A stretch of DNA of 64,000 nucleotides from Rhodospirillaceae bacterium. GTDB taxonomy: Bacteria > Pseudomonadota > Alphaproteobacteria > UBA8366. Within the stretch, counting starts at the first letter, position 1. Each line of letters opens with the position of its first letter. The notes under the pieces were generated by a model. It was given only the letters and a program-made list of their open reading frames with translations. It did no database searches and had not been told where the DNA came from. The stretch is taken from contig PBOR01000016.1 of the NCBI GenBank assembly GCA_002724395.1, positions 32,608 to 96,607 of the forward strand, written 5' to 3'. Of the stretch, positions 1,888 through 13,421 are shown piece by piece. A program made the translations under genes and the position numbers.

Positions 1888-2682
1888 CTACATTCCAGAC
1901 TTTTCTCGAAGCCAATCACTCTTAAGAATTAGTATTTTGCGATCGACATAGCAGATAGCACCCGCAGCCTGAAATTTTTCCAAAGTCGCAGTAACCCATT
2001 GCCGCGTAGAGCCAACCATGTTGGCTAAATCTTCATGGGTTAGATGACGATCAATCAAGACTCCTGCGTCATCTTCTTTCGATCCCGCCTCCGACAGAAG
2101 CAATAAAAGCTGTGCCAGCCTTTCGACCACGGAACGAGTCCCAAGCATTTGAAGCAGCGCTGAGTAGCATTTACCTTTTTGGATAGAACCCTCTAGCAAT
2201 CCCGCTGCGAGAACTGATGACTTCTGAACAAGACGACGCAAGGGTTCGCCGCCGATTTTTAGCAAATGACAATCCTCTGCAGCTACACCTGACCAAATAT
2301 GTTCGCCACCACCATAGATTTCGGGACCGCCAACAAAATGACCGCGGGTCCAATAGGCAAGCGTAATCTCACGGCCAGTCGGACCAACATAGAAAGTTCT
2401 AACGGACCCAGACTCAATTAAAAAAATTCCATCATGACGCTCGCCCTGAAAAAACACTGTCTCGTCAGACCGGACATAAATTTCTGCCCCAATATCCCTA
2501 AGTGCGCAGTATTCCTCCGCACTCATTCGATTTAAAAAAGTCGTCCGCATACCAATTTCTACCGGAGCTTCCGCCAAGAATAATGCCGCCGGAATTTCCT
2601 CAGAAGCCTTACTGTCGCCCACACACGCGCAATCTGCACTGAGGTCTCGCACTGGTGTCTTTGACGGCATAACATTAATCAT
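1888..2682 (-). CDS. Crp/Fnr-family transcriptional regulator
   Basis: A 264-residue regulator with a cyclic-nucleotide-binding-type beta-roll (about residues 50-165) and a C-terminal winged helix whose recognition region reads LTHEDLANMVGSTRQWVTAT (about 208-230). The N-terminus has only Cys18 and Cys20, not the four-cysteine pattern of oxygen-sensing Fnr, so a canonical [4Fe-4S] sensor is unlikely. The start codon overlaps the stop of the cytochrome c gene as ATGA, implying translational coupling. Position at the end of a copper/cytochrome operon suggests it controls that operon or a respiratory regulon; this is inference. The effector cannot be told from sequence. Confidence 0.88.
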   Translation of the reverse strand: MINVMPSKTPVRDLSADCACVGDSKASEEIPAALFLAEAPVEIGMRTTFLNRMSAEEYCALRDIGAEIYVRSDETVFFQGERHDGIFLIESGSVRTFYVGPTGREITLAYWTRGHFVGGPEIYGGGEHIWSGVAAEDCHLLKIGGEPLRRLVQKSSVLAAGLLEGSIQKGKCYSALLQMLGTRSVVERLAQLLLLLSEAGSKEDDAGVLIDRHLTHEDLANMVGSTRQWVTATLEKFQAAGAICYVDRKILILKSDWLREKSGM

Positions 2683-3317
2683 CGCACTTCTTTCTGTCTT
2701 GGTTGCGCTGCCAGATACATCGCAAGATCAACGATCTCCTTGGGACTTAATATTTTAGCTATTTTGCGCATCACTCCACCCGGATCATTTCGCCGTGCGT
2801 TGCCACGAAAGTCCAAAAGTTGCTTTGCTAGGTAGGCCTCATGTTGTGCTTTTAATCGTGGAAATTGAGCCGCAGTGCCATGACAACTGCGACAAGCAGG
2901 TAAATTTCGCCTTGGATCACCATTCTCAAACAATATCTGGGCATTCCGATCAATCGCACTTGGCGAACGTTTAAACGCGGGCGGTGGAGGCAAACGGCTG
3001 TAATATTTGGCGGCTTGCTGCAATGTTTTCATCATTTTCGATCCTGCCATTGCCGTCATAGTACCATTATCGTTGAGGCGACGCTCTAGCTTGAAATCAC
3101 GCAACTGTTTAGTAAGATAGGCTAACGGCTGCCCTGCAAGTTTGGGGAAACGATCCATGTGGCTAACCCCGTCAACGCCGTGGCACATAGCACAAGTTTC
3201 CCATGCTTTCAGCCCACTAGTATCAATCATATCTCCCTGCACGTTACCCATCGCGATCAGTAATGTGAGCATGCCGGACAGTAATGCGTATAGGGAAGCC
3301 AATCCTTGCACATTCAC
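2679..3317 (-). CDS. Diheme cytochrome c (c4/c553-like), periplasmic
   Basis: A 212-residue protein with an N-terminal hydrophobic export segment (about 5-24) and two heme-binding CXXCH motifs, CAMCH at 42-46 and CRSCH at 142-146. The two halves are similar in layout, each having KLAGQ/RLKAQ followed by a YL.KQL.DF segment, the hallmark of duplicated cytochrome c4/c553-type proteins. Met-rich stretches (TAMAGSKMM, GGVMRKI) could supply the sixth heme ligands. It starts 7 bases after the PCuAC gene and its stop overlaps the Crp/Fnr start. It is likely a periplasmic electron shuttle to or from a copper enzyme; the partner is not in this window. Confidence 0.88.
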   Translation of the reverse strand: MNVQGLASLYALLSGMLTLLIAMGNVQGDMIDTSGLKAWETCAMCHGVDGVSHMDRFPKLAGQPLAYLTKQLRDFKLERRLNDNGTMTAMAGSKMMKTLQQAAKYYSRLPPPPAFKRSPSAIDRNAQILFENGDPRRNLPACRSCHGTAAQFPRLKAQHEAYLAKQLLDFRGNARRNDPGGVMRKIAKILSPKEIVDLAMYLAAQPRQKEVR

Positions 3318-3324
3318 ACTTTGC

Positions 3325-3837
3325 CTAATGGCCCATATGATGATGGTGTTTATGCGCCATTCCGGGTGCCTTTTTTACAGGAGCTAAGAAAGTTTTTGAT
3401 GATCCGTCTGCAAACTCCAAAGAAAGTTGAATCTCATCACCCACTTTCAAGGACCGCTTTGGATAAAAGAGCATAAAATGGAAGCTACCAGGCACCATCT
3501 TCACACTACTTTTGGCCGGTATAGATATTTGTTGTTGTTTAACCATTGTCGCGATGCCGTTCGTTACCTTCGAAAGGTGTAATTCAACTTTTTGATAATC
3601 GGAGCTTTTTGCCGATACCAGCACAACGTTTTTAGTCCCTTTATTAATCAACTCCGCGTAGGCAGCATGAATTTTCATTTTAGGCGGCGCCTCTCGCACC
3701 CAAGGCTCTAAGACCAAGAGCTTAGTCTCGGCACGGGCCTGAAAAGCAGTTATCGAAGCCAGTGAAACTAAACTCATTCCTATGAGTAAATGTAGAAGCC
3801 AGAAAACGCCTCCGTCACTTTTCGTGATAGTTTGCAT
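3325..3837 (-). CDS. PCuAC-family periplasmic copper chaperone
   Basis: A 170-residue exported protein with a hydrophobic segment at about 11-33. It matches the known PCuAC copper-site spacing H-X10-M-X21-H-X-M exactly, with His87, Met98, His120 and Met122. In this family these residues bind Cu(I) and pass it to CuA sites or to Sco. The C-terminus adds a His/Met-rich tail (HKHHHHMGH), a second likely copper-binding element seen in some members. It sits 2 bases after the Sco gene and 7 bases before the cytochrome c gene. Confidence in the function is high because the whole metal motif is visible. Confidence 0.94.
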   Translation of the reverse strand: MQTITKSDGGVFWLLHLLIGMSLVSLASITAFQARAETKLLVLEPWVREAPPKMKIHAAYAELINKGTKNVVLVSAKSSDYQKVELHLSKVTNGIATMVKQQQISIPAKSSVKMVPGSFHFMLFYPKRSLKVGDEIQLSLEFADGSSKTFLAPVKKAPGMAHKHHHHMGH

Positions 3838-3839
3838 GC

Positions 3840-4559
3840 TTAACTTGTTCCTTTAAATTCTCGTTTATCTAAATCGGAAACAGAGGAAACAGAATGAGGC
3901 TCGTAAGCCGCCTTTAATGATAAGAAAGCGCTTTTTGCGAGGGCTGGCTCAAGAGGTGGTTTGAGCTTGGCAAATACTCTTCCCGACGGATCAATCACAA
4001 AGATTTCTGCACTATGCACGACGTCATATTCCCCCTCGCCCCGGTTAGCGCCCAACTTGTAGTGACCACCTATTTGATCGACAAATTTATCAATTGCTCG
4101 TTTGTTGCCAGTCGCAGCTTTAAAGGCAGGATTAAAGTGTTGCACATAGTTCCTCAACGTTTCCGGGGTATCACGACCTGGGTCAACCGACAAAAAAATT
4201 ACTTGAGGGATCATATCACGAGATAATTCTTTTGCCATTTTTTGATAAACCACGGCCAAATTGCCGAGAACGAACGGACATACATCGGGGCAATGTGTAA
4301 AACCTAAAATCAAGTAACTCCAGTTGCCCTTAAGAGACGTCAAATCGAATGGTTCGCCGCGGCCGTCCAGAAGGTTAAACGGTTGGAGCGTGCGAGGTTT
4401 ATCAATCAACTCCTCAGGAATATTGCTTAGCATTTGGTTTGCCGGTTTTTCCGTTAGGAATAAATAATGCAGCATGATACCGAGGATTGGTGCTGCACCC
4501 AGCAAACCGAGGCCAAGAGGAGCAGGAATAGGGCCCTTAAATATACGGCGCCAATTCAT
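3840..4559 (-). CDS. Sco1/SenC-family copper chaperone/thiol protein
   Basis: A 239-residue membrane-anchored thioredoxin-fold protein. It has one N-terminal transmembrane segment (about 16-36), the copper/thiol motif CPDVC (Cys90, Cys94) and the conserved downstream histidine in VVHSAEIF (His182), the three Cu ligands of Sco proteins. Family members insert copper into CuA of cytochrome oxidase or nitrous oxide reductase. The start codon overlaps the ATPase stop as ATGA, so Sco is translationally coupled to an ABC transporter. That is an unusual partnership and supports a copper role for the importer. Confidence 0.93.
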   Translation of the reverse strand: MNWRRIFKGPIPAPLGLGLLGAAPILGIMLHYLFLTEKPANQMLSNIPEELIDKPRTLQPFNLLDGRGEPFDLTSLKGNWSYLILGFTHCPDVCPFVLGNLAVVYQKMAKELSRDMIPQVIFLSVDPGRDTPETLRNYVQHFNPAFKAATGNKRAIDKFVDQIGGHYKLGANRGEGEYDVVHSAEIFVIDPSGRVFAKLKPPLEPALAKSAFLSLKAAYEPHSVSSVSDLDKREFKGTS

Positions 4560-5416
4560 CGGTTCGATCCTGGGTTCTGCTGTTCAAAAGCGCGCAAACT
4601 TTCTGCTTTGATAAAGTCGATACATTGTTTTTTGGCACGGATGAATTGATCTTCGGTCGCCATTTCCATTGTCCTAGGTCGGTCGAGAGCAATATCGATA
4701 TCTGCAATTATTCGACCAGGTGATGCACTCATCACCAACACGCGGTCAGCCAGAAAGATAGCCTCATCAATATCGTGAGTGATAAATAATACGGTGATGC
4801 GAAACTCTGACCAAATTTCGAGTAGATTCTCCTGCATCATTAATCGCGTCTGCGCATCCAGTGCACCAAACGGCTCATCCATAAGAAGGACACTAGGATA
4901 ATTCGCCAGGGCTCGCGCAATGCCAACCCGCTGTTTCATGCCACCAGAAAGTTCTGCAGGGAAACGGTCGGCATAGTCATAGAGCCCTACCATTGACAGA
5001 AATGTATTAGCCGTACTTTCTGCCGCCGCCCGTCCCGCGCCCGTCCTCATTGGTCCAAAAGCCACATTCTCACGAATGGTTTTCCAGGGGAAAAGTGAAT
5101 ATTGCTGAAATACCATGCCCCGGTCGGGGCCAGGCTTTTCAATTGCTTCGCGATCGACAGCAACCGTGCCATTGGTTGGCTTGATGAATCCAGCCACCGC
5201 GTTAAGTAAAGTGGACTTCCCACAACCTGAAGGGCCAAGAATGCAAACAAATTCCCCAGGTGTGATATCTGCAGAAACTTTGTCGATAGCGACATTGTCC
5301 ACACCACCGCGTGAGAAGATGACGCTTACATCATCAATTGAAATATGACCATGGTCGATACGGTTTTTCTTCTTTTCTGCATGTTTGGGCATGAGTTCGT
5401 TCACAGCTTGCAACAA
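4556..5416 (-). CDS. ABC transporter ATP-binding protein, NitT/TauT type
   Basis: A 286-residue ATPase of the nitrate/sulfonate/taurine importer family. It shows Walker A GPSGCGKST (61-69), Q-loop VFQQYSLFPW, signature LSGGMKQRV (about 160), Walker B VLLMDEP with FGALD, and the switch histidine in LFITHD. The start is taken as TTG at 5416 because GGAAGG lies a few bases upstream; ATG at 5392 would remove 8 residues but lacks a visible ribosome site. Annotation by family alone would say nitrate/taurine; the neighbours (Sco, PCuAC, CC membrane protein) argue for a metal-related cargo. Confidence 0.93.
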   Translation of the reverse strand: MLQAVNELMPKHAEKKKNRIDHGHISIDDVSVIFSRGGVDNVAIDKVSADITPGEFVCILGPSGCGKSTLLNAVAGFIKPTNGTVAVDREAIEKPGPDRGMVFQQYSLFPWKTIRENVAFGPMRTGAGRAAAESTANTFLSMVGLYDYADRFPAELSGGMKQRVGIARALANYPSVLLMDEPFGALDAQTRLMMQENLLEIWSEFRITVLFITHDIDEAIFLADRVLVMSASPGRIIADIDIALDRPRTMEMATEDQFIRAKKQCIDFIKAESLRAFEQQNPGSNR

Positions 5417-5443: not shown

Positions 5444-6103
5444 CTAAGCGACCATACGGTCGGTGCCTGGCGGATCGCTCGCGAGCAAAACAATTCCGCC
5501 AAATAGGAGAATGAATCCCAGGACAGACAATATTGTCCCTGCTGGCTCGAGCCATAGCGCAAGCGAAGCGCTCATGCCGAGCATGGCCAAGCTAACGACC
5601 CACGTAGAAGCAGCGCAGCACACCACCCAGCTCAATGTTGCGGTCGTGAAGGCGACCAGAAATGCTCCACTGCTCGTAAAAGACATAGCACGCATTTTTG
5701 ATGCAACTGGGCAGGATTGCTTTTTACGTTCGATTATCAGGGTGACTGCAGCTGCGATTAAGAATCCAGCCAGTAGCTGGACAAGAAAATATGAGGGAAT
5801 GACATTCAGGCTCCATTCCGAAACGCCATGGCCATAATCGTAGTTCATAAAACCAATCTCAATTAACCACTCATCGCCAATAACTCTAAAGGCGTCACTG
5901 AGAGCAGGCGTCTCTAAAAAGATAGTCGCAACATTGCCGACATAATCGTAAAACGTCACATAGTTAGGAATATTGCCAAACCGGACAACCATTGCGCCCA
6001 GCAAAAATAAATAATAAACGCTGACAAACCCCAGTGCGCTCCCAAACCAAATCAGCTTATTCTCTCTGATTGCACGAGCTAGGTTATGAAAGCGGCTGCT
6101 CAT
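5444..6103 (-). CDS. Multi-pass membrane protein with MerT-like CC motif
   Basis: A 219-residue protein with about five hydrophobic segments. I place the start at 6103 because ATG there overlaps the permease stop as ATGA, giving MSSRFHNLARA; the longer frame adds eight residues. It lacks the EAA loop of an ABC permease. Near residue 162 it has vicinal cysteines in SWVVCCAASTW, followed by a helix, a short WLEPAG link and another helix. That layout resembles the CC-containing helix of MerT-type mercuric transporters, in which the pair binds metal. I do not recognise a named family. In this operon it is a candidate metal-handling membrane component of the importer. Confidence 0.75.
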   Translation of the reverse strand: MSSRFHNLARAIRENKLIWFGSALGFVSVYYLFLLGAMVVRFGNIPNYVTFYDYVGNVATIFLETPALSDAFRVIGDEWLIEIGFMNYDYGHGVSEWSLNVIPSYFLVQLLAGFLIAAAVTLIIERKKQSCPVASKMRAMSFTSSGAFLVAFTTATLSWVVCCAASTWVVSLAMLGMSASLALWLEPAGTILSVLGFILLFGGIVLLASDPPGTDRMVA

Positions 6104-7008
6104 CGGCCTGCCTCCAACGCCTGCCATCGCATCATAGGACGGGTCAGAAGCCGAATAAGGTATGTGGAGAACGTTCCCAATCCACCAATTATTAACATGC
6201 CCACCACAATGTCGGTGTATTTGATCAAGGAATAAGCATTCCAGGTGAAGTAACCAATTCCATATTGTCCCGAAATTATTTCACCGGCCAACAAAGAGAA
6301 CCAGGACACACCCATACCTATGGCCAATCCCGATGCAATGCTGGGAAGTGCTGAAGGAAAGACCACATGCCAGAAAATTTCTACATTGGTCGCGCCGAGA
6401 GACCGTGCAGCACGGACCAAAATTTCAGGTGTGGCTTCGACGCCTTGCACTGTATTGAGTACGATTGGAAAAAACGCGCCTAAAAAAGTTATAAAAATTA
6501 TACTGGATTCTTCTGTTGGCCATATCAGGATAGCAAGTGGTATCCAAGCGACCGCCGGGATTGGCCTCAAAACTTCAATATAGGGAATACAAATATCTTC
6601 GGCAGTCCGAAATCGACCCATTAATAAGCCTACAATAATACCCAGAACAGTTGCCGCTACATAGCCAATCAAAATGCGCTTCATGCTAACGAGGATATGA
6701 AGATAAAAATCCACCGTTTGAGCGTGTTGAATAAAGTTAACTGCTACCCTCCATGGCTCCGGCACGTTCTCGAAATTGAGAACTCTATTGAAATCTGTTT
6801 CCGTCAAATAATGCCATAAAGCGATGGCCAAACAGATAGCAAAACCCCGCACTGCCCATCGTTTTACGGCGTCGGGAACTTGTATCGATTTTTGCGGAAT
6901 AGTTGTTTCATTATCGCTGTCTTCGGCAGTGGAGAGAGCGGAGACATTTGCTTCAACATTTGATTTTGTAGGCGGTGATATATTAGCCACCAGCTTATTT
7001 GTTGACAT
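6100..7008 (-). CDS. ABC transporter permease, NitT/TauT type
   Basis: A 302-residue inner-membrane permease. After a hydrophilic N-terminus of about 45 residues come roughly six transmembrane helices and the ATPase-contacting EAA loop, ARSLGATNVEIFWHVVFPSA (about 205-224). This is the SsuC/TauC/NrtB-like fold. It follows the binding-protein gene after an 81-base gap holding a strong hairpin, and its stop overlaps the start of the CC membrane protein. Function as a permease is secure; the cargo is not. Confidence 0.93.
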   Translation of the reverse strand: MSTNKLVANISPPTKSNVEANVSALSTAEDSDNETTIPQKSIQVPDAVKRWAVRGFAICLAIALWHYLTETDFNRVLNFENVPEPWRVAVNFIQHAQTVDFYLHILVSMKRILIGYVAATVLGIIVGLLMGRFRTAEDICIPYIEVLRPIPAVAWIPLAILIWPTEESSIIFITFLGAFFPIVLNTVQGVEATPEILVRAARSLGATNVEIFWHVVFPSALPSIASGLAIGMGVSWFSLLAGEIISGQYGIGYFTWNAYSLIKYTDIVVGMLIIGGLGTFSTYLIRLLTRPMMRWQALEAGR

Positions 7009-7089: not shown

Positions 7090-8451
7090 TTAGCTAGTTG
7101 AAGCCAAAATCGCTTTTTCGAAATCAATCGGTACACTGCCAACTTTCTTCGCATACGATTCTGCATCCTGTTTTCGCAAGAATGCTTTGTATGCATCTTT
7201 CGTCTTAACGTAGTAGGCCATCTTGCCAAAAAGCTTGAGGCCGGTGACGTCATCATAGACATATGTTGCGTTTAGTTTCTGTGCGTTGGCTTGGAACTTT
7301 CCGACGGCTTTAAGGTATGATGCCAAGTCTTTATAATTTTTAATTCCCTCCTTAGCGTGCCAGACTTCCGGACCCAAACCAGCGTGGGCTTTTTGAGGGT
7401 CGTGGATAATGCCCACCTGTTTGTCATAATCCATCGCCATTTCGGAGAATGCCTTCCGGATATACTGGTCTTGAATCCATTCTTTCAAATCAAGTGGCGG
7501 AATTTGTTTCTCCCGCGCCAACACACCATGGTCGAATTTTAATGCTTCGATCCATTTTGCCTTGATAGTCGGCTCGAGGGTCAAGTGGCCGCCCTTGCTA
7601 AAATATAGATACTGAACCTCTTTTTCGATACCAGTCCATTTCTCGAGAGATTCGGCTGCACGTATCGGATCTGCCAAGACCCAATTACCGGCATCAATTA
7701 CTGCTTTTAGGAAGGCGACTACGACTTCCGGATACTCATCTGCCAATTTTTTGCGTACCACCACACCATGGAGGTAGGGAATACCGGCTTCACTCCCATC
7801 AAAAATTTTTCGGCCCGTACCGCGAAATTCCATTAGCTCTGACCAGGGGCAGAAATCAGCGTGTGCATCAATTTTTCCCTTTGCAATATTAGCCGCACCC
7901 ACAGCAGGGCTCTGATTCTTAATAGTTACTTCGGAACTCTTAATTCCCGCATCCTGTAATGCCTTGAGTGTCATACCCCAAGCAGCACTTCCAACTGGGA
8001 CCGAAATTGCCTTACCCTTTAGTTCGGAGAATTTGTGAATTTTAGAAGCGACAGGCACAACGACCGCATTTCCCGAGCCTTTTAGATTATACCCTGTGCC
8101 CGCCACGTAATAAGTTCGTAGACTTTTTGTAGCCTGGAACTTAGCGCCATTAACAATCAGCGGATAATCCCCCATCACACCAATATTGAGTTTACTGGCC
8201 ATCATTTGATTAGTGATTGGGCCTCCTGAGCTGTAATCAGCCCATTTGATTTGATAGTCTGCGTCCTTATATTTCCCAGTTTTGGGCAGGTGCTTTTCAA
8301 GTAATTTTAATTCCTTGACGATGATGCCGGCAGTATATGTATCGGTGCACATACTTTGGTGACCGATCCCTATTTTTATGGTTTTAGCTTCAAGAACGCC
8401 GGCCAAACTTACCGTAGCGGCTAATGAAGCAATAAGCGCAGTCTTTCGCAT
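7090..8451 (-). CDS. NitT/TauT-type substrate-binding protein with NosL-like C-terminal tail
   Basis: A 453-residue exported solute-binding protein. A signal peptide (about 1-22, ending VLEA) precedes a periplasmic-binding-protein type 2 core (IKIGIGHQSM; NIGVMGDYPLIVNG; KAISVPVGSAAWG). It is longer than the roughly 320 residues of usual SsuA/TauA proteins. The last 60 residues do not look like that core: YVYDDVTG, then KMAYYVKTKDAYKAF, then DAESYAKKVGSVPIDFEKA resembles the end of the copper chaperone NosL (YYTG, YYVVG, AF, AEEFAKEHGG, F.E). Cys29-type residues occur in SMCTDTY and HADFCPW. Ligand unknown; copper or a metal complex is my inference from the tail and neighbours. Confidence 0.85.
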   Translation of the reverse strand: MRKTALIASLAATVSLAGVLEAKTIKIGIGHQSMCTDTYTAGIIVKELKLLEKHLPKTGKYKDADYQIKWADYSSGGPITNQMMASKLNIGVMGDYPLIVNGAKFQATKSLRTYYVAGTGYNLKGSGNAVVVPVASKIHKFSELKGKAISVPVGSAAWGMTLKALQDAGIKSSEVTIKNQSPAVGAANIAKGKIDAHADFCPWSELMEFRGTGRKIFDGSEAGIPYLHGVVVRKKLADEYPEVVVAFLKAVIDAGNWVLADPIRAAESLEKWTGIEKEVQYLYFSKGGHLTLEPTIKAKWIEALKFDHGVLAREKQIPPLDLKEWIQDQYIRKAFSEMAMDYDKQVGIIHDPQKAHAGLGPEVWHAKEGIKNYKDLASYLKAVGKFQANAQKLNATYVYDDVTGLKLFGKMAYYVKTKDAYKAFLRKQDAESYAKKVGSVPIDFEKAILASTS

Positions 8452-8749: not shown

Positions 8750-9271
8750 TTATAGTGGTGCGTCCTGAATAGACAAAATTTGCTGAATCAGGAGATTTTT
8801 GGCCCAATTACGCTCACCTATAGCGCCGAAAAAAATTACCCCATCCTGATTCACCACATACGTGGTCGGCATAGCAGTTACTTGCCACCGTAGGCGACTT
8901 TCTGCGCTAGGATCAGTCAACACGGGAAACGTCAAACTCCGATTGGAAAGAAACCGACGAACATGTTCCCTACCCTCACCGACATTGATAGCCAGTATCA
9001 CAACCCCTTTCGGCCTTAGTTTTTCAAAAGCTTCTTGCAAAGCCTTCAGTTCACGTCGACAAGGTGGACACCATGTTGCCCAAAAATGGACTAAGACAAT
9101 GTTTCCCTTATAATCCTCTAATTTATGCATTTTCCCGGTAAGATCCGCGAGCCCCAACGCAGGCGCTATTGGCTTTTGCGGAAATTCAATTAGGCCAAGT
9201 GATGCGGAATGGGCTTTAGCAAAAACTCCAAGAGAGAACAAAGTTATATATAAAGCCGAGAGTTTCACCAC
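8750..9271 (-). CDS. TlpA/ResA-like membrane-anchored thioredoxin
   Basis: A 173-residue periplasmic thioredoxin-fold protein: an N-terminal signal or anchor (about 3-22), then the redox motif ATWCPPCRRE (Cys68, Cys71), then the cis-proline segment MPTTYVV. TlpA proteins keep periplasmic thiols reduced; in Bradyrhizobium TlpA reduces Sco and CuA-subunit cysteines so that copper can load. Finding it in the same strand run as Sco and PCuAC fits that role. Its start overlaps the GntR stop by 7 bases, so the two are co-transcribed. Confidence 0.9.
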   Translation of the reverse strand: MVKLSALYITLFSLGVFAKAHSASLGLIEFPQKPIAPALGLADLTGKMHKLEDYKGNIVLVHFWATWCPPCRRELKALQEAFEKLRPKGVVILAINVGEGREHVRRFLSNRSLTFPVLTDPSAESRLRWQVTAMPTTYVVNQDGVIFFGAIGERNWAKNLLIQQILSIQDAPL

Positions 9272-10023
9272 CTCGGCACCCGCACATGAAACTGGAAGGC
9301 ATCGCTACGGCCTTTTAATATTTCAAAGTCAACTGGGCTTCCCTGGGCATCCAAAGTCAGCCGTTCTATTTCGACTATAGCCCCACCTATTTCAATTCCG
9401 AGCCTTGCTGCCAACGCTTCATCTGATTTACCTATCTTGATGACTAGATCCGCTGTGCTAAGTTCTATTCCGAGGCGATCTTCAATCAACACAAATACGT
9501 CCTGACGCTCTAAGTCGTATTCACCCAAATAGCTGCCAATACCGACCGGAAAATAACTAGTATCGAAAGAGGCAGGTTGAGAGTTTATAAATCTCAATCG
9601 CTGTAAGCACGTAACGCGGTCATTTATTCCCACGTCAAGTGCATCCGCAACTTCCGGAGATGCAGGCACCTCCTCTAACGCAAATACCTTGGAGGTAACA
9701 ATCATTCCGGCCTGTGATAAGGACTCTCCCAGCCCAAGCAAACGACCTAAATTTTGCACCGCTGTGGGGGAGGATACAAAATGGCCTTTGCCTTTTTTAC
9801 TGTGAACTAAATTTTCCTCTTGCAGCTGCTGCAATGCATGACGCACCGTTACACGGCTAGCGTGATAATTCGCCATCAACCTCCTTTCCGAGGGCAGCCG
9901 TTGGTCCATAGAGTATTCGCCATTACCAATACGGTATTTAATATCATTATAGATAACGCGATAAAGTGGCCCAGTCGAATTTGGGGCGGCCGAGGCTGAT
10001 AATGGTTTCGTGGTTTGCGCCAC
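9265..10023 (-). CDS. GntR-family regulator (HutC/UTRA type)
   Basis: A 252-residue regulator with an N-terminal winged helix (RLPSERRLMANYHASRVTVR, about 43-62) and a C-terminal UTRA ligand domain (about 95-245; FINSQPASFDTSYFPV, DFEILKGRSDAFQF). Start is GTG at 10023, with GGAGA 8 bases upstream. UTRA domains bind small molecules, often substrates or products of the regulated pathway. It lies between the HEAT and TlpA genes, so it probably controls this cluster; the palindromes at 8642, 13118 and 13487 are candidate sites. Confidence 0.9.
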   Translation of the reverse strand: MAQTTKPLSASAAPNSTGPLYRVIYNDIKYRIGNGEYSMDQRLPSERRLMANYHASRVTVRHALQQLQEENLVHSKKGKGHFVSSPTAVQNLGRLLGLGESLSQAGMIVTSKVFALEEVPASPEVADALDVGINDRVTCLQRLRFINSQPASFDTSYFPVGIGSYLGEYDLERQDVFVLIEDRLGIELSTADLVIKIGKSDEALAARLGIEIGGAIVEIERLTLDAQGSPVDFEILKGRSDAFQFHVRVPRW

Positions 10024-10069: not shown

Positions 10070-11032
10070 TTAAGCGGCCTGAATTTGTCCAATAGCCCAG
10101 CGAATATTTTTCCGAACATCAGGGTCTGGATCATCTTCCACACTCTTTAGATATGGGAGCCCATCTGGGTGAGCGATCTCACCAAGCGCTGCAGCCGCCT
10201 CTTTGCGGAGGTTGCTTATATTATGTTGCAGCGACGGTGCTAAAGCAGAAACTGCGGATACGGACTTAAACTGGCCCAAGCTACGAGCTGCTTTTACACG
10301 AACTTGCCAAAAGCTATCCTCCATTGCCCCCATCAACGAAGTAGCCGCCGACACTGCTCCGACACGCCCCAGTGTTTCAGCAGCAATTTCGCGTACCGAC
10401 CACTCATCATCGCCTAACCCCTCAAGAAGCGCATCCACAACCAAATCTTCACCGCAAAACGCTATAGCGCCGAGGGCTGAACGACGCACCTTGGGATCTG
10501 GGTCGTGGGTCGCATGTATGAGTGCAGGCAAAGCATTAATATCTTTTAGGTAACCCAGCACTCCAACAGCTTCCATTCGAACACCTGGGTCAAGGTCGGC
10601 AAGCGCTTTGAGGGCGCTTCCAAGAACCGCTGGATTACGCAGCTCTTTCAGTGCATGCAAAACGGAGGCTCGCACAAATGCGTCTTTGTGCCCAACAACA
10701 TCAAGTAGCGGTACGGCACATTCCGGATTTTTAAATTCTGCCATACTGTATGCGGCCGCCTTTCTAACCGCCTCATCACTATCAGAAAGTACTTCGGCCA
10801 AGCTTGCCGCTGCCTCGGGCACATCGAAAGATTCTAACGAGCGAGCCGCTTCTAGTCGAACCTCCGCCGCATTATCTTTCAGACAATCAATCAGCGTATC
10901 AATTACCGTCGGCTCGGCGCTTTCAGCCAAATCAAGCACAGCAATCCGGCGCACCATGGCATCATCATCCTTAAGTCGCGCATGGATTTCCTCTAGGCCG
11001 TCCTCGTCTTCGAACACTTCAAACACTGGCAT
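10070..11032 (-). CDS. HEAT-repeat protein
   Basis: A 320-residue protein made almost wholly of roughly ten 31-residue HEAT/PBS-lyase-type repeats, each with the pattern DPDP.VR..A...LG (for example DAFVRASVLHALKELRNP and DDEWSVREIAAETLGRVG). No signal peptide, so probably cytoplasmic. These repeats usually form a protein-binding solenoid; the CpcE-like subgroup assists cofactor attachment. It starts 6 bases after the ferredoxin gene, so a role as scaffold or maturation factor for the flavoprotein-ferredoxin pair is reasonable but inferred. Confidence 0.85.
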   Translation of the reverse strand: MPVFEVFEDEDGLEEIHARLKDDDAMVRRIAVLDLAESAEPTVIDTLIDCLKDNAAEVRLEAARSLESFDVPEAAASLAEVLSDSDEAVRKAAAYSMAEFKNPECAVPLLDVVGHKDAFVRASVLHALKELRNPAVLGSALKALADLDPGVRMEAVGVLGYLKDINALPALIHATHDPDPKVRRSALGAIAFCGEDLVVDALLEGLGDDEWSVREIAAETLGRVGAVSAATSLMGAMEDSFWQVRVKAARSLGQFKSVSAVSALAPSLQHNISNLRKEAAAALGEIAHPDGLPYLKSVEDDPDPDVRKNIRWAIGQIQAA

Positions 11033-11038
11033 AACGCA

Positions 11039-11272
11039 TCACCGCAATAAATAAGGAATGCTTACGTTTACTGCGCCCGTCGGGCAGTCCGCTTCGCATG
11101 GCATGCAGTACCAACACTCATCATATTTCATATATGCCTTCTTGGTTTCGTCGTGAATACGAAGAACATCAAGCGGACAAACGTCGACGCAGACCGTACA
11201 ACCCTTGTGGGCAATGCACTTTTCATCATCTACGGTTACAGGCACTGTGGTTGGGGAGTTAGCTAGTGGCAT
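11039..11272 (-). CDS. AprB-like ferredoxin, two [4Fe-4S] clusters
   Basis: A 77-residue ferredoxin with two cluster motifs: Cys19, 25, 28, 32 (CIAHKGCTVCVDVCP) and Cys53, 56, 59, 63 (CWYCMPCEADCP). The spacer KKAYMKYDECWYC and the wide first spacing C-X5-C resemble the beta subunit of adenylylsulfate reductase (AprB) rather than a generic bacterial ferredoxin. It follows the flavoprotein gene by 33 bases. It is the likely electron carrier to or from that subunit; the electron donor is unknown. Confidence 0.88.
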   Translation of the reverse strand: MPLANSPTTVPVTVDDEKCIAHKGCTVCVDVCPLDVLRIHDETKKAYMKYDECWYCMPCEADCPTGAVNVSIPYLLR

Positions 11273-11305
11273 TCTTATTTCTCCTATACCTTTGGAACGA
11301 CTCAG

Positions 11306-13042
11306 CTAAGCCTGGGCTTCGACGCGCTGCTTGTCGTAAAGATCTTTTTCGGAGTCATCGACCGGCACCAGATAAGGGTCTACATCGCGTTTTTTGATGT
11401 CCATTAACCCGTCCCGGTTTTTGAATAACTGGCTAAAGCAAAACCAATTCTCATTATCACGTTCTGGATAGTCAGTCCGGTTGTGATATAGACCCCAGCG
11501 ACTTTCAGTACGAAACAGCGAGGCAAAAGCCGCCATATCCGCACAGTCAATAATCGAATGGACTTCCATAGCTCGCATCAACTCATGGGAATTACGCGCC
11601 ACCATATGATTTAAATCTTCACGTACTTCAGCAAACCGTTCCTGAGCCAATTGCATTTTCTTAGTCACTTTCGGTGGCTGAAGATAATCATTAACTAGCC
11701 TCCGGATCTTATACTCAACCTGATTAGGAGGAATGCCGTCATCCAACTTAGTTGGCGCTAATACGCGTTCCTTCTCGAGAGCGACCTGATCTTCGTCAAT
11801 CTCGGCAAACTCCACTTCACCAGCATATTCCACGGCATCTTCTCCGGCAAAACGTCCGTTTGTGAATGCTCCCAACATATAGTTATGAGGCACATTGGCC
11901 ATGTCGCCGGCAGCATAGAGGCCATCCACCGTGGTCCGCGCATTTTCATCCACAAAAACACCTGAAGCGCTATGACCGGAACAAAATCCAATCTCTGAAA
12001 TATGCATTTCTATCATTTCTTGGCGATAATTGATGTTCCTGCCATGCTGAAACCGTCCACGCGTTGGCCGTTCGACGTTATGAAGCGTACTTTCGATTTC
12101 CTCGATGGTTTTGTCGTGGAGATGATCCAGCTTCAGGAATACGGGTCCTTTGCCACTTTGCAGTTCGTTGTAGAACTCCTGCATCATCTGTCCGCTCCAA
12201 TAGTCACACTCAATGAACCGCATACCCTCATTGTTAGCGGTGTATCCACCGAAGGGCCCAGCCACATAGGCGCAGGCGGGACCGTTATAATCTTTGATCA
12301 AAGGATTAATTTGATAACATTCTAGATTGGAAAGCTCGGCGCCTGCGTGGTAGGCCATCGCATACCCGTCACCGCTGTTCGCAGCATTTTCGTAAGTGCC
12401 AAAAAGATATCCCGATGTCGGGAGACCGAGACGTCCAGCAGCACCCATACAAAGGATTACCGATTTCGCCCTAACAACTAGAAATGTTGCATCGCGTGTG
12501 TTGACTGCAATTGCCCCAGCAATTCTGCCGTCTTTGGCTGTCAGAAGACGGGTCGCCATATATCGGTTAGTAATCAGCAACCTCGCGCGCCGAAGTTGGC
12601 GATAAAGCGCTTTTTTTACCGTATCTCCGTTTGGCATTGGCAATACATAAGTACCAAGGTGATGCACCTTTTTGACGTCATAATCGCCAGTTTCATCCTT
12701 CAAAAAACGAATCCCGAAAGAATCTAATTCCTGAATTATGTCGAAACAATTTTCTGCGTATTTATACACGGCCCCTTGATTGACAATGCCGTCATTCGCA
12801 ATTGTTATTTCTTTTGTATATTGCTCCGGTGTCGCGTGACCTGGGATTACGGTATTATTGAGGCCGTCCATACCCATCGAAATCGCACCACTACGTTTAA
12901 CATTAGCTTTTTCCAACAAAACTACCGTCGCGTCCGGGTTTTTTTTCTTAGCCTTGTAGGCCGCCATCGGGCCAGCCGTGCCGCCGCCAATGACAAGTAC
13001 ATCGCAGTCAAAGGTTTCCGTACCATTTGCGATTTCGTCCAT
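11306..13042 (-). CDS. AprA/fumarate-reductase-like FAD flavoprotein subunit
   Basis: A 578-residue flavoprotein of the succinate dehydrogenase / fumarate reductase / AprA superfamily. It has the dinucleotide motif LVIGGGTAGPMAA (about 16-28), VVLLEKANVKRSG, and the late FAD motif VDGLYAAGDMANVPH. With the adjacent AprB-like ferredoxin it forms an AprBA-like pair. I recall close relatives in rhizobia sitting with ferredoxin, HEAT and NitT-type transporter genes, but know of no assigned reaction. No ATP sulfurylase or dissimilatory sulfite genes occur here, so true APS reductase activity is doubtful. Start ATG has AAGGA upstream. Confidence 0.88.
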   Translation of the reverse strand: MDEIANGTETFDCDVLVIGGGTAGPMAAYKAKKKNPDATVVLLEKANVKRSGAISMGMDGLNNTVIPGHATPEQYTKEITIANDGIVNQGAVYKYAENCFDIIQELDSFGIRFLKDETGDYDVKKVHHLGTYVLPMPNGDTVKKALYRQLRRARLLITNRYMATRLLTAKDGRIAGAIAVNTRDATFLVVRAKSVILCMGAAGRLGLPTSGYLFGTYENAANSGDGYAMAYHAGAELSNLECYQINPLIKDYNGPACAYVAGPFGGYTANNEGMRFIECDYWSGQMMQEFYNELQSGKGPVFLKLDHLHDKTIEEIESTLHNVERPTRGRFQHGRNINYRQEMIEMHISEIGFCSGHSASGVFVDENARTTVDGLYAAGDMANVPHNYMLGAFTNGRFAGEDAVEYAGEVEFAEIDEDQVALEKERVLAPTKLDDGIPPNQVEYKIRRLVNDYLQPPKVTKKMQLAQERFAEVREDLNHMVARNSHELMRAMEVHSIIDCADMAAFASLFRTESRWGLYHNRTDYPERDNENWFCFSQLFKNRDGLMDIKKRDVDPYLVPVDDSEKDLYDKQRVEAQA

Positions 13043-13117: not shown

Positions 13118-13129
13118 GCAATTAATTGC
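13118..13129. promoter_or_regulatory. 12-bp palindrome GCAATTAATTGC, copy 1
   Basis: This perfect palindrome overlaps the DUF971 stop codon and lies 75 bases before the start of the flavoprotein gene. An identical copy, including the following C, lies at 13487. Similar placement before two successive genes suggests operators for one dimeric regulator. Confidence 0.5.
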
Positions 13130-13421
13130 CAATTGCCGACTTTTCCCCAAGATCACGTAAGTATGCCCAAGGATAGATCCCCCGATCATGACCATCGGAA
13201 AAAACTAGATTCACAGCGTAACGCCCAATCGCGCGGATATCATTAATTGTCAATTCCGGCATTAGTATCGTATCGATTTCATCGAGGCGCGCGCGTTTCG
13301 CACTAGCAGAATTACAATGTTGACGAAGGTATGACGCGGAGATCGCTGTCGCTTTGCCATCGGGCCACCGCACGGTCAGACTTTTTTTATCTTTTGAGAG
13401 ATCGAGTTCAGTCGGCATCAT
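13122..13421 (-). CDS. DUF971-domain protein
   Basis: A 99-residue protein matching DUF971 (the gamma-butyrobetaine-hydroxylase N-terminal-like domain). Visible are LTVRWPDGKATAISASYLRQ (about 15-34) and IGRYAVNLVFSDGHDRGIYP (about 65-84). The usual CXXC after LR.HC is replaced by CNSASAKRA, so the zinc-binding pair of some members is missing. DUF971 occurs alone or fused to Mrp/ApbC Fe-S carriers and 2-oxoglutarate oxygenases. As first gene of the minus run, 80 bases before the flavoprotein, it may help cofactor loading; function is unproven. Confidence 0.85.
   Translation of the reverse strand: MMPTELDLSKDKKSLTVRWPDGKATAISASYLRQHCNSASAKRARLDEIDTILMPELTINDIRAIGRYAVNLVFSDGHDRGIYPWAYLRDLGEKSAIGN

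Follow-up and report, generated by a model that had tools for sequence, protein, structure and literature searches.

A NosL-superfamily domain lacking the NosL copper ligands at the C-terminus of a family of NitT/TauT-type substrate-binding proteins

NosL, which chaperones copper for nitrous oxide reductase, consists of two homologous beta-beta-alpha-beta domains (PMC7558416; PMC6530538), and the Cys and Met of its conserved CXM motif have been proposed as likely copper ligands, together with one further absolutely conserved Met (PMC6530538). In PDB entries that bear the title ABC transporter complex NosDFYL, NosL is bound to an ABC complex, and PMC7558416 cites a 2006 structural study in which NosL had been likened to the organomercurial lyase MerB. 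The binding protein described here ends in a domain that resembles NosL (PF05573) in its two beta-beta-alpha-beta halves, in profile and structure matches that span about 95 residues, in its periplasmic location and in its association with an ABC transporter; it differs in being fused to a binding protein, and in lacking a lipoprotein anchor, the Cys and Met of CXM, and the GxMG loop. Its core shares fold and sequence with the SsuA/TauA type (SsuA_fam TIGR01728, NMT1), as well as an operon with one permease and an ATPase, but the protein carries about 120 extra C-terminal residues and its neighbours are an APS/PAPS-reductase-like pair, a HEAT-repeat protein and a DUF971 protein. With the NrtA/CmpA type it has in common a length of more than 320 residues and a structural similarity that involves the whole model.

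The gene lies in the window, i.e. the entire 64,000-nucleotide stretch of Rhodospirillaceae bacterium contig PBOR01000016.1 that was analysed, and the tail residues quoted in the original prediction (YVYDDVTG and AESYAKKVG) are found as described in the 453-residue ORF at 8451-7090 (Table 1). NMT1 and NMT1_2 score above cut-off on the protein in a profile search, and its full AlphaFold2 model has a pLDDT of 92.7 and a pTM of 0.90. The family profile aligns with TauA (6ssy) over residues 66-330 and with SsuA (3uif) over residues 67-340, in both cases nearly to the end of the chain; because the known fold stops near residue 330-340, the last 120 residues or so are an addition to it. A two-lobed exported core with permease and ATPase adjoining identifies the protein as a member of the NitT/TauT (SsuA/TauA) group, and it stays below the curated cut-offs for the SsuA family (E 3.4e-34, 118 bits against 163.5) and for taurine binding (90 bits against 304). 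The core has two cysteines, Cys35 (GHQSMCTDT), kept in 62 of 107 homologues, and Cys201 (HADFCPW), kept in 86 of the 107; judged by their positions, both may face the ligand cleft, an odd feature if the protein simply bound sulfonates.

Modelled alone (AlphaFold2), the tail reaches a pLDDT of 95.6 and has a beta-beta-alpha-beta unit followed by a second strand set, a helix and a final helix, and thus shows the two halves of the NosL fold. The NosL-like stretch had been placed at 7090-7278; an extra NosL-like domain is real, but that interval covers its second half only, with the start near residue 356 (window position 7386). A Foldseek search of the tail model returned NosL at ranks 1-6 and no other match with good probability. 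For 7og7, VIA gave a Z of 10.6 with 94 residues aligned at 2.5 Å; other NosL structures came next, and then MerB (Z up to 8.3), which is the next fold after NosL; with MerB there is no sequence match. NrtA/CmpA proteins are not among the matches listed by either program for the tail alone, which by itself proves nothing.

It is important to point out that the homology of tail and NosL is visible only through relatives and structure. The check that had been proposed, a NosL profile score for the window protein itself, came out negative: PF05573 does not match the protein at E<=1 and a home-made NosL HMM yields 3.0 bits; direct Pfam and NCBIfam searches of the tail likewise gave no NosL match. 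PF05573 does match 22 of 38 and 26 of 60 sampled homologues, the set of 60 having been collected irrespective of NosL, with a best E of 2e-8 and 35 bits against a Pfam cut-off of 24. When 299 proteobacterial genomes were scanned for NosL, long frames came up, and the five that were fetched are homologous to the window protein (34-42% identity) and set in similar operons. In profile-profile comparison (hhalign), 60 tails, none of them chosen by NosL score, align with NosL at 97.3% (E 2.3e-11, score 70.9), compared with 19.9 for the best of 100 column shuffles and 10.0 for the reversed profile. A profile built from 18 close relatives alone reaches 92.5% and a more diverse tail set 98.1% (score 84), and core segments of the binding protein give no signal against NosL. 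Run against all PDB sequences, the tail profile has four matches, each weak (E 0.05 to 1), all NosL, and nothing else. Fold, profile-profile and PDB comparisons agree that the tail is almost certainly a NosL-superfamily domain; what they leave standing of the proposal of a fused copper chaperone is the NosL fold and ancestry, and the copper-chaperone reading is not supported, the CXM Cys and Met and the GxMG Met being absent.

The loss of the NosL copper residues is evident from a joint alignment, in which the window tail has no Cys anywhere and lacks the Met of CXM, and none of the aligned tails has the GxMG loop with the second conserved Met. Nor is there an anchor Cys within the N-terminal 25 residues of the binding protein (MRKTALIASLAATVSLAGVLEAKTI). 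A Cys at the CXM column occurs in 10 of 107 tails, all from distant relatives, and in nine of the ten another Cys follows at a distance of about 30 alignment columns (loci L010, L011, L097, L100, L135 and L153-L156; L016 has the first alone), which suggests a disulfide or a metal pair in those nine. The tail of L097 even reads Cys-Glu-Met, a complete CXM. In a FastTree phylogeny built on the core and rooted only by midpoint, the members with a Cys-bearing tail are found on deep branches, a position that fits an ancestral tail Cys that was later lost. Metal binding is probably absent in the window protein; an alternative metal site on the domain is conceivable, as distant relatives keep Cys.

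Table 1. Features of the window around the binding-protein gene
Feature	Position	Strand	Basis
DUF971-like protein	13122..13421	-	homologues so annotated in L010, L014
APS/PAPS-reductase-alpha-like flavoprotein (PRK08275)	11306..13042	-	profile match
77-aa ferredoxin, two 4Fe-4S-type Cys motifs	11039..11272	-	translation
HEAT-repeat protein	10070..11032	-	profile match
GntR-type regulator	9265..10023	-	homologues so annotated in L011, L016
TlpA/ResA-like thioredoxin	8750..9271	-	profile match
Exported NitT/TauT/SsuA-type substrate-binding protein with a C-terminal NosL-like domain	7090..8451	-	453 aa; ORF
Binding-protein core, about residues 24-330	7462..8382	-	TauA 6ssy and SsuA 3uif profile matches; Foldseek SsuA/TauA
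NosL-superfamily domain (two beta-beta-alpha-beta halves; residues ~356-453; NosL copper ligands absent)	7093..7386	-	profile and structure comparison
ABC permease (BPD_transp_1)	6100..7008	-	profile match
Unclassified membrane protein, conserved WVVCCA...W.V.L..LG motif; one clade of loci	5444..6127	-	alignment
ABC ATPase (SaoA/NtrCD/TauB type)	4556..5416	-	profile match
SCO1/SenC copper chaperone	3840..4559	-	profile match; alignment
PCu(A)C copper chaperone	3325..3837	-	profile match; alignment
Exported diheme cytochrome c, two CxxCH motifs	2679..3317	-	ORF, profile, alignment
Crp/Fnr-type regulator	1888..2682	-	homologues so annotated in L010, L017

The fusion is lineage-wide. It had been regarded as unusual, yet it turns out to be the standard architecture of one binding-protein family: every intact homologue examined carries the tail, so that the fusion is not peculiar to the window gene. 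Tailed homologues are found in Alpha-, Beta- and Gammaproteobacteria, Acidithiobacillia, Cyanobacteria, Actinomycetota, Nitrospinia and Rokuibacteriota, and in 15 of 299 proteobacterial genomes that sample the phylum evenly; the carriers that can be cultured include Roseibium and Stutzerimonas. The tail motif, an invariant Trp together with YVYD..TGLKLFG, is strongly conserved; Trp364, Asp400 and Lys406 are among the invariant positions. In the two close pairs usable for dN/dS estimates (others were saturated at synonymous sites or otherwise unusable) the ratio is 0.16 and 0.08 for the tail compared with 0.02 and 0.03 for the core; the tail is thus under purifying selection, less tightly than the core. 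A chance fusion or an assembly artefact was considered and rejected, as about 100 loci share the architecture and purifying selection acts on it. The sole tail-less copy encountered is on plasmid pLAtc3 of Acidithiobacillus caldus (L012, 8986-9984); it stops about where the tail would be expected to start, with an ISL3 transposase gene adjoining.

The genes from 13421 down to 1888 are all on one strand, several of them overlapping by a few bases, and the neighbourhood is conserved. Among 92 loci compared, some of them short so that all counts are lower bounds, the permease is present in at least 89, the ATPase in at least 84, the HEAT-repeat protein in at least 74, the flavoprotein in at least 72 and the DUF971 protein in at least 56. 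The flavoprotein matches an APS/PAPS reductase alpha subunit over its whole length: its closest solved structure, 8a8o_A, aligns with residues 13-557 of 578 (E 9e-67). That structure is the PAPS reductase alpha subunit of M. thermolithotrophicus, an enzyme that resembles dissimilatory APS reductases (PMC10322725). In database annotation the flavoprotein and the ferredoxin (11039-13042, minus strand) appear as fumarate reductase/succinate dehydrogenase. Arylsulfatase genes lie near two homologous transporters, in Paraburkholderia (L011) and in Gordonia (L016); the Paraburkholderia locus also has a formylglycine-generating enzyme and a SulP transporter. The APS/PAPS-reductase-like flavoprotein and the arylsulfatase neighbours favour a sulfur compound as the cargo, and the substrate of the binding protein would accordingly be a sulfur compound.

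Copper enters the picture elsewhere in the gene run. In SCO1 the CxxxC and His are conserved in all 40 aligned sequences, and in PCu(A)C His87, Met98, His120 and Met122 are conserved in 29 of 29; the heme ligands of the diheme cytochrome are conserved too. The same 92 loci contain at least 39 SCO1, at least 28 PCu(A)C, at least 38 diheme cytochrome c and at least 45 membrane-protein genes, and it is almost exclusively in the clade of the window protein (node support 0.75) that these lie after the ABC genes. Copper or redox chemistry could therefore be of importance to this clade, and copper handling there would, as far as sequence tells, be the business of separate proteins and not of the NosL-like tail. 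The tail had also been taken to point to copper as the cargo; the neighbours point to sulfur chemistry instead, and the only link to copper runs through the separate SCO1 and PCu(A)C. A profile search of the genome found no NosL, and for NosZ a 16-bit fragment only, far below cut-off. Nitrous oxide reductase was accordingly dropped as a target of the tail, the genome having neither NosL nor a NosZ over cut-off.

An explanation that accommodates the computed NosL fold and ancestry, the lineage-wide fusion, the loss of copper residues and the conserved neighbourhood could run as follows. A NosL-superfamily domain would have been joined, probably once, to a binding protein of the sulfonate/taurine type and then kept family-wide. 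In the periplasm the core would bind a small solute, probably one that contains sulfur, and deliver it to the ABC permease encoded by the adjoining gene, and the imported solute might then pass to the co-encoded APS/PAPS-reductase-like flavoprotein and ferredoxin. Most likely the tail would work without metal, as a rigid module for docking or gating that places the binding protein on the transporter or on periplasmic partners, and in the window's clade copper would be handled by the separate SCO1 and PCu(A)C. Docking on a transporter is plausible as an old property of the fold, because NosL itself binds an ABC complex; we infer the docking or gating role of the tail in this sense. As a whole, the metal-free docking or gating module on a sulfur-compound importer has, in our estimation, an even chance of being right. 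An extended form, in which a metal-free NosL fold was exapted on a sulfur-compound binder and one clade then gained SCO1, PCu(A)C, the diheme cytochrome and the CC-motif membrane protein, so that the importer links the uptake of organosulfur compounds to copper or redox handling in the periplasm, is conceivable but rather unlikely.

Other readings of the tail have to be weighed against the docking module. It could be an accessory ligand-binding domain, putatively MerB-like, that holds or caps the solute beside the core cleft. MerB is the second-best fold after NosL, and the strongly conserved motif with its invariant Trp would suit such a cap; however, MerB works through Cys and the window tail has none, and we regard a cap as unlikely, if worth keeping in mind. 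That the tail is a working Cu(I)-binding domain, which through ligands other than those of NosL exchanges copper with the SCO1 and PCu(A)C encoded downstream, would agree with a fold that is a copper-chaperone fold and with a gene run in which both chaperones retain all their copper ligands and recur in the window's clade. The absence from the window tail of any Cys, of the CXM Cys and Met and of the GxMG Met speaks against it, as does the fact that the members that keep Cys are different from those that carry SCO1 and PCu(A)C, which makes a copper-exchanging tail improbable.

Alternatively, the ancestral tail could have been a thiol-disulfide module built on the Cys pair, which has decayed in the window's clade to leave a merely stabilising tail. 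The second Cys in nine of the ten Cys-bearing members, the deep branches on which these lie and the faster evolution of the tail than of the core are compatible with decay, but purifying selection persists on the tail and invariant residues are kept, and we hold this history to be quite improbable. Least credible is that the tail amounts to ordinary C-terminal helices of a binding protein, even though long binding proteins of the NrtA/CmpA type, of about 400 aa, do exist: known structures of binding proteins stop near residue 330-340, the tail alone folds as two beta-beta-alpha-beta units for which NosL is the only strong match, and core segments yield no NosL score. Ordinary helices have hardly any probability left.

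The tail extends the NosL fold beyond nitrous oxide reductase assembly, to a form without the NosL copper ligands that is carried by a multi-phylum family of binding proteins. For annotators, a NosL match on such a binding protein should not imply copper or denitrification. The conserved operon (NosL-tailed binding protein, APS/PAPS-reductase-like flavoprotein, HEAT-repeat protein and DUF971 protein) appears to be new to the searchable literature, i.e. the openly licensed part, in which no relevant report of a NosL fusion to a binding protein or of the operon was found.

One further gene of the run deserves mention. The membrane protein between the permease and the ATPase belongs to no Pfam family; an RF...PNY loop is conserved in it, as is the motif WVVCCA...LG...LEP, in which two Cys are adjacent, and it co-occurs with SCO1 in one clade. 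Its profile has a weak resemblance to MerT over 48 columns, with a score of 31.7 compared with 16.9 for shuffles.
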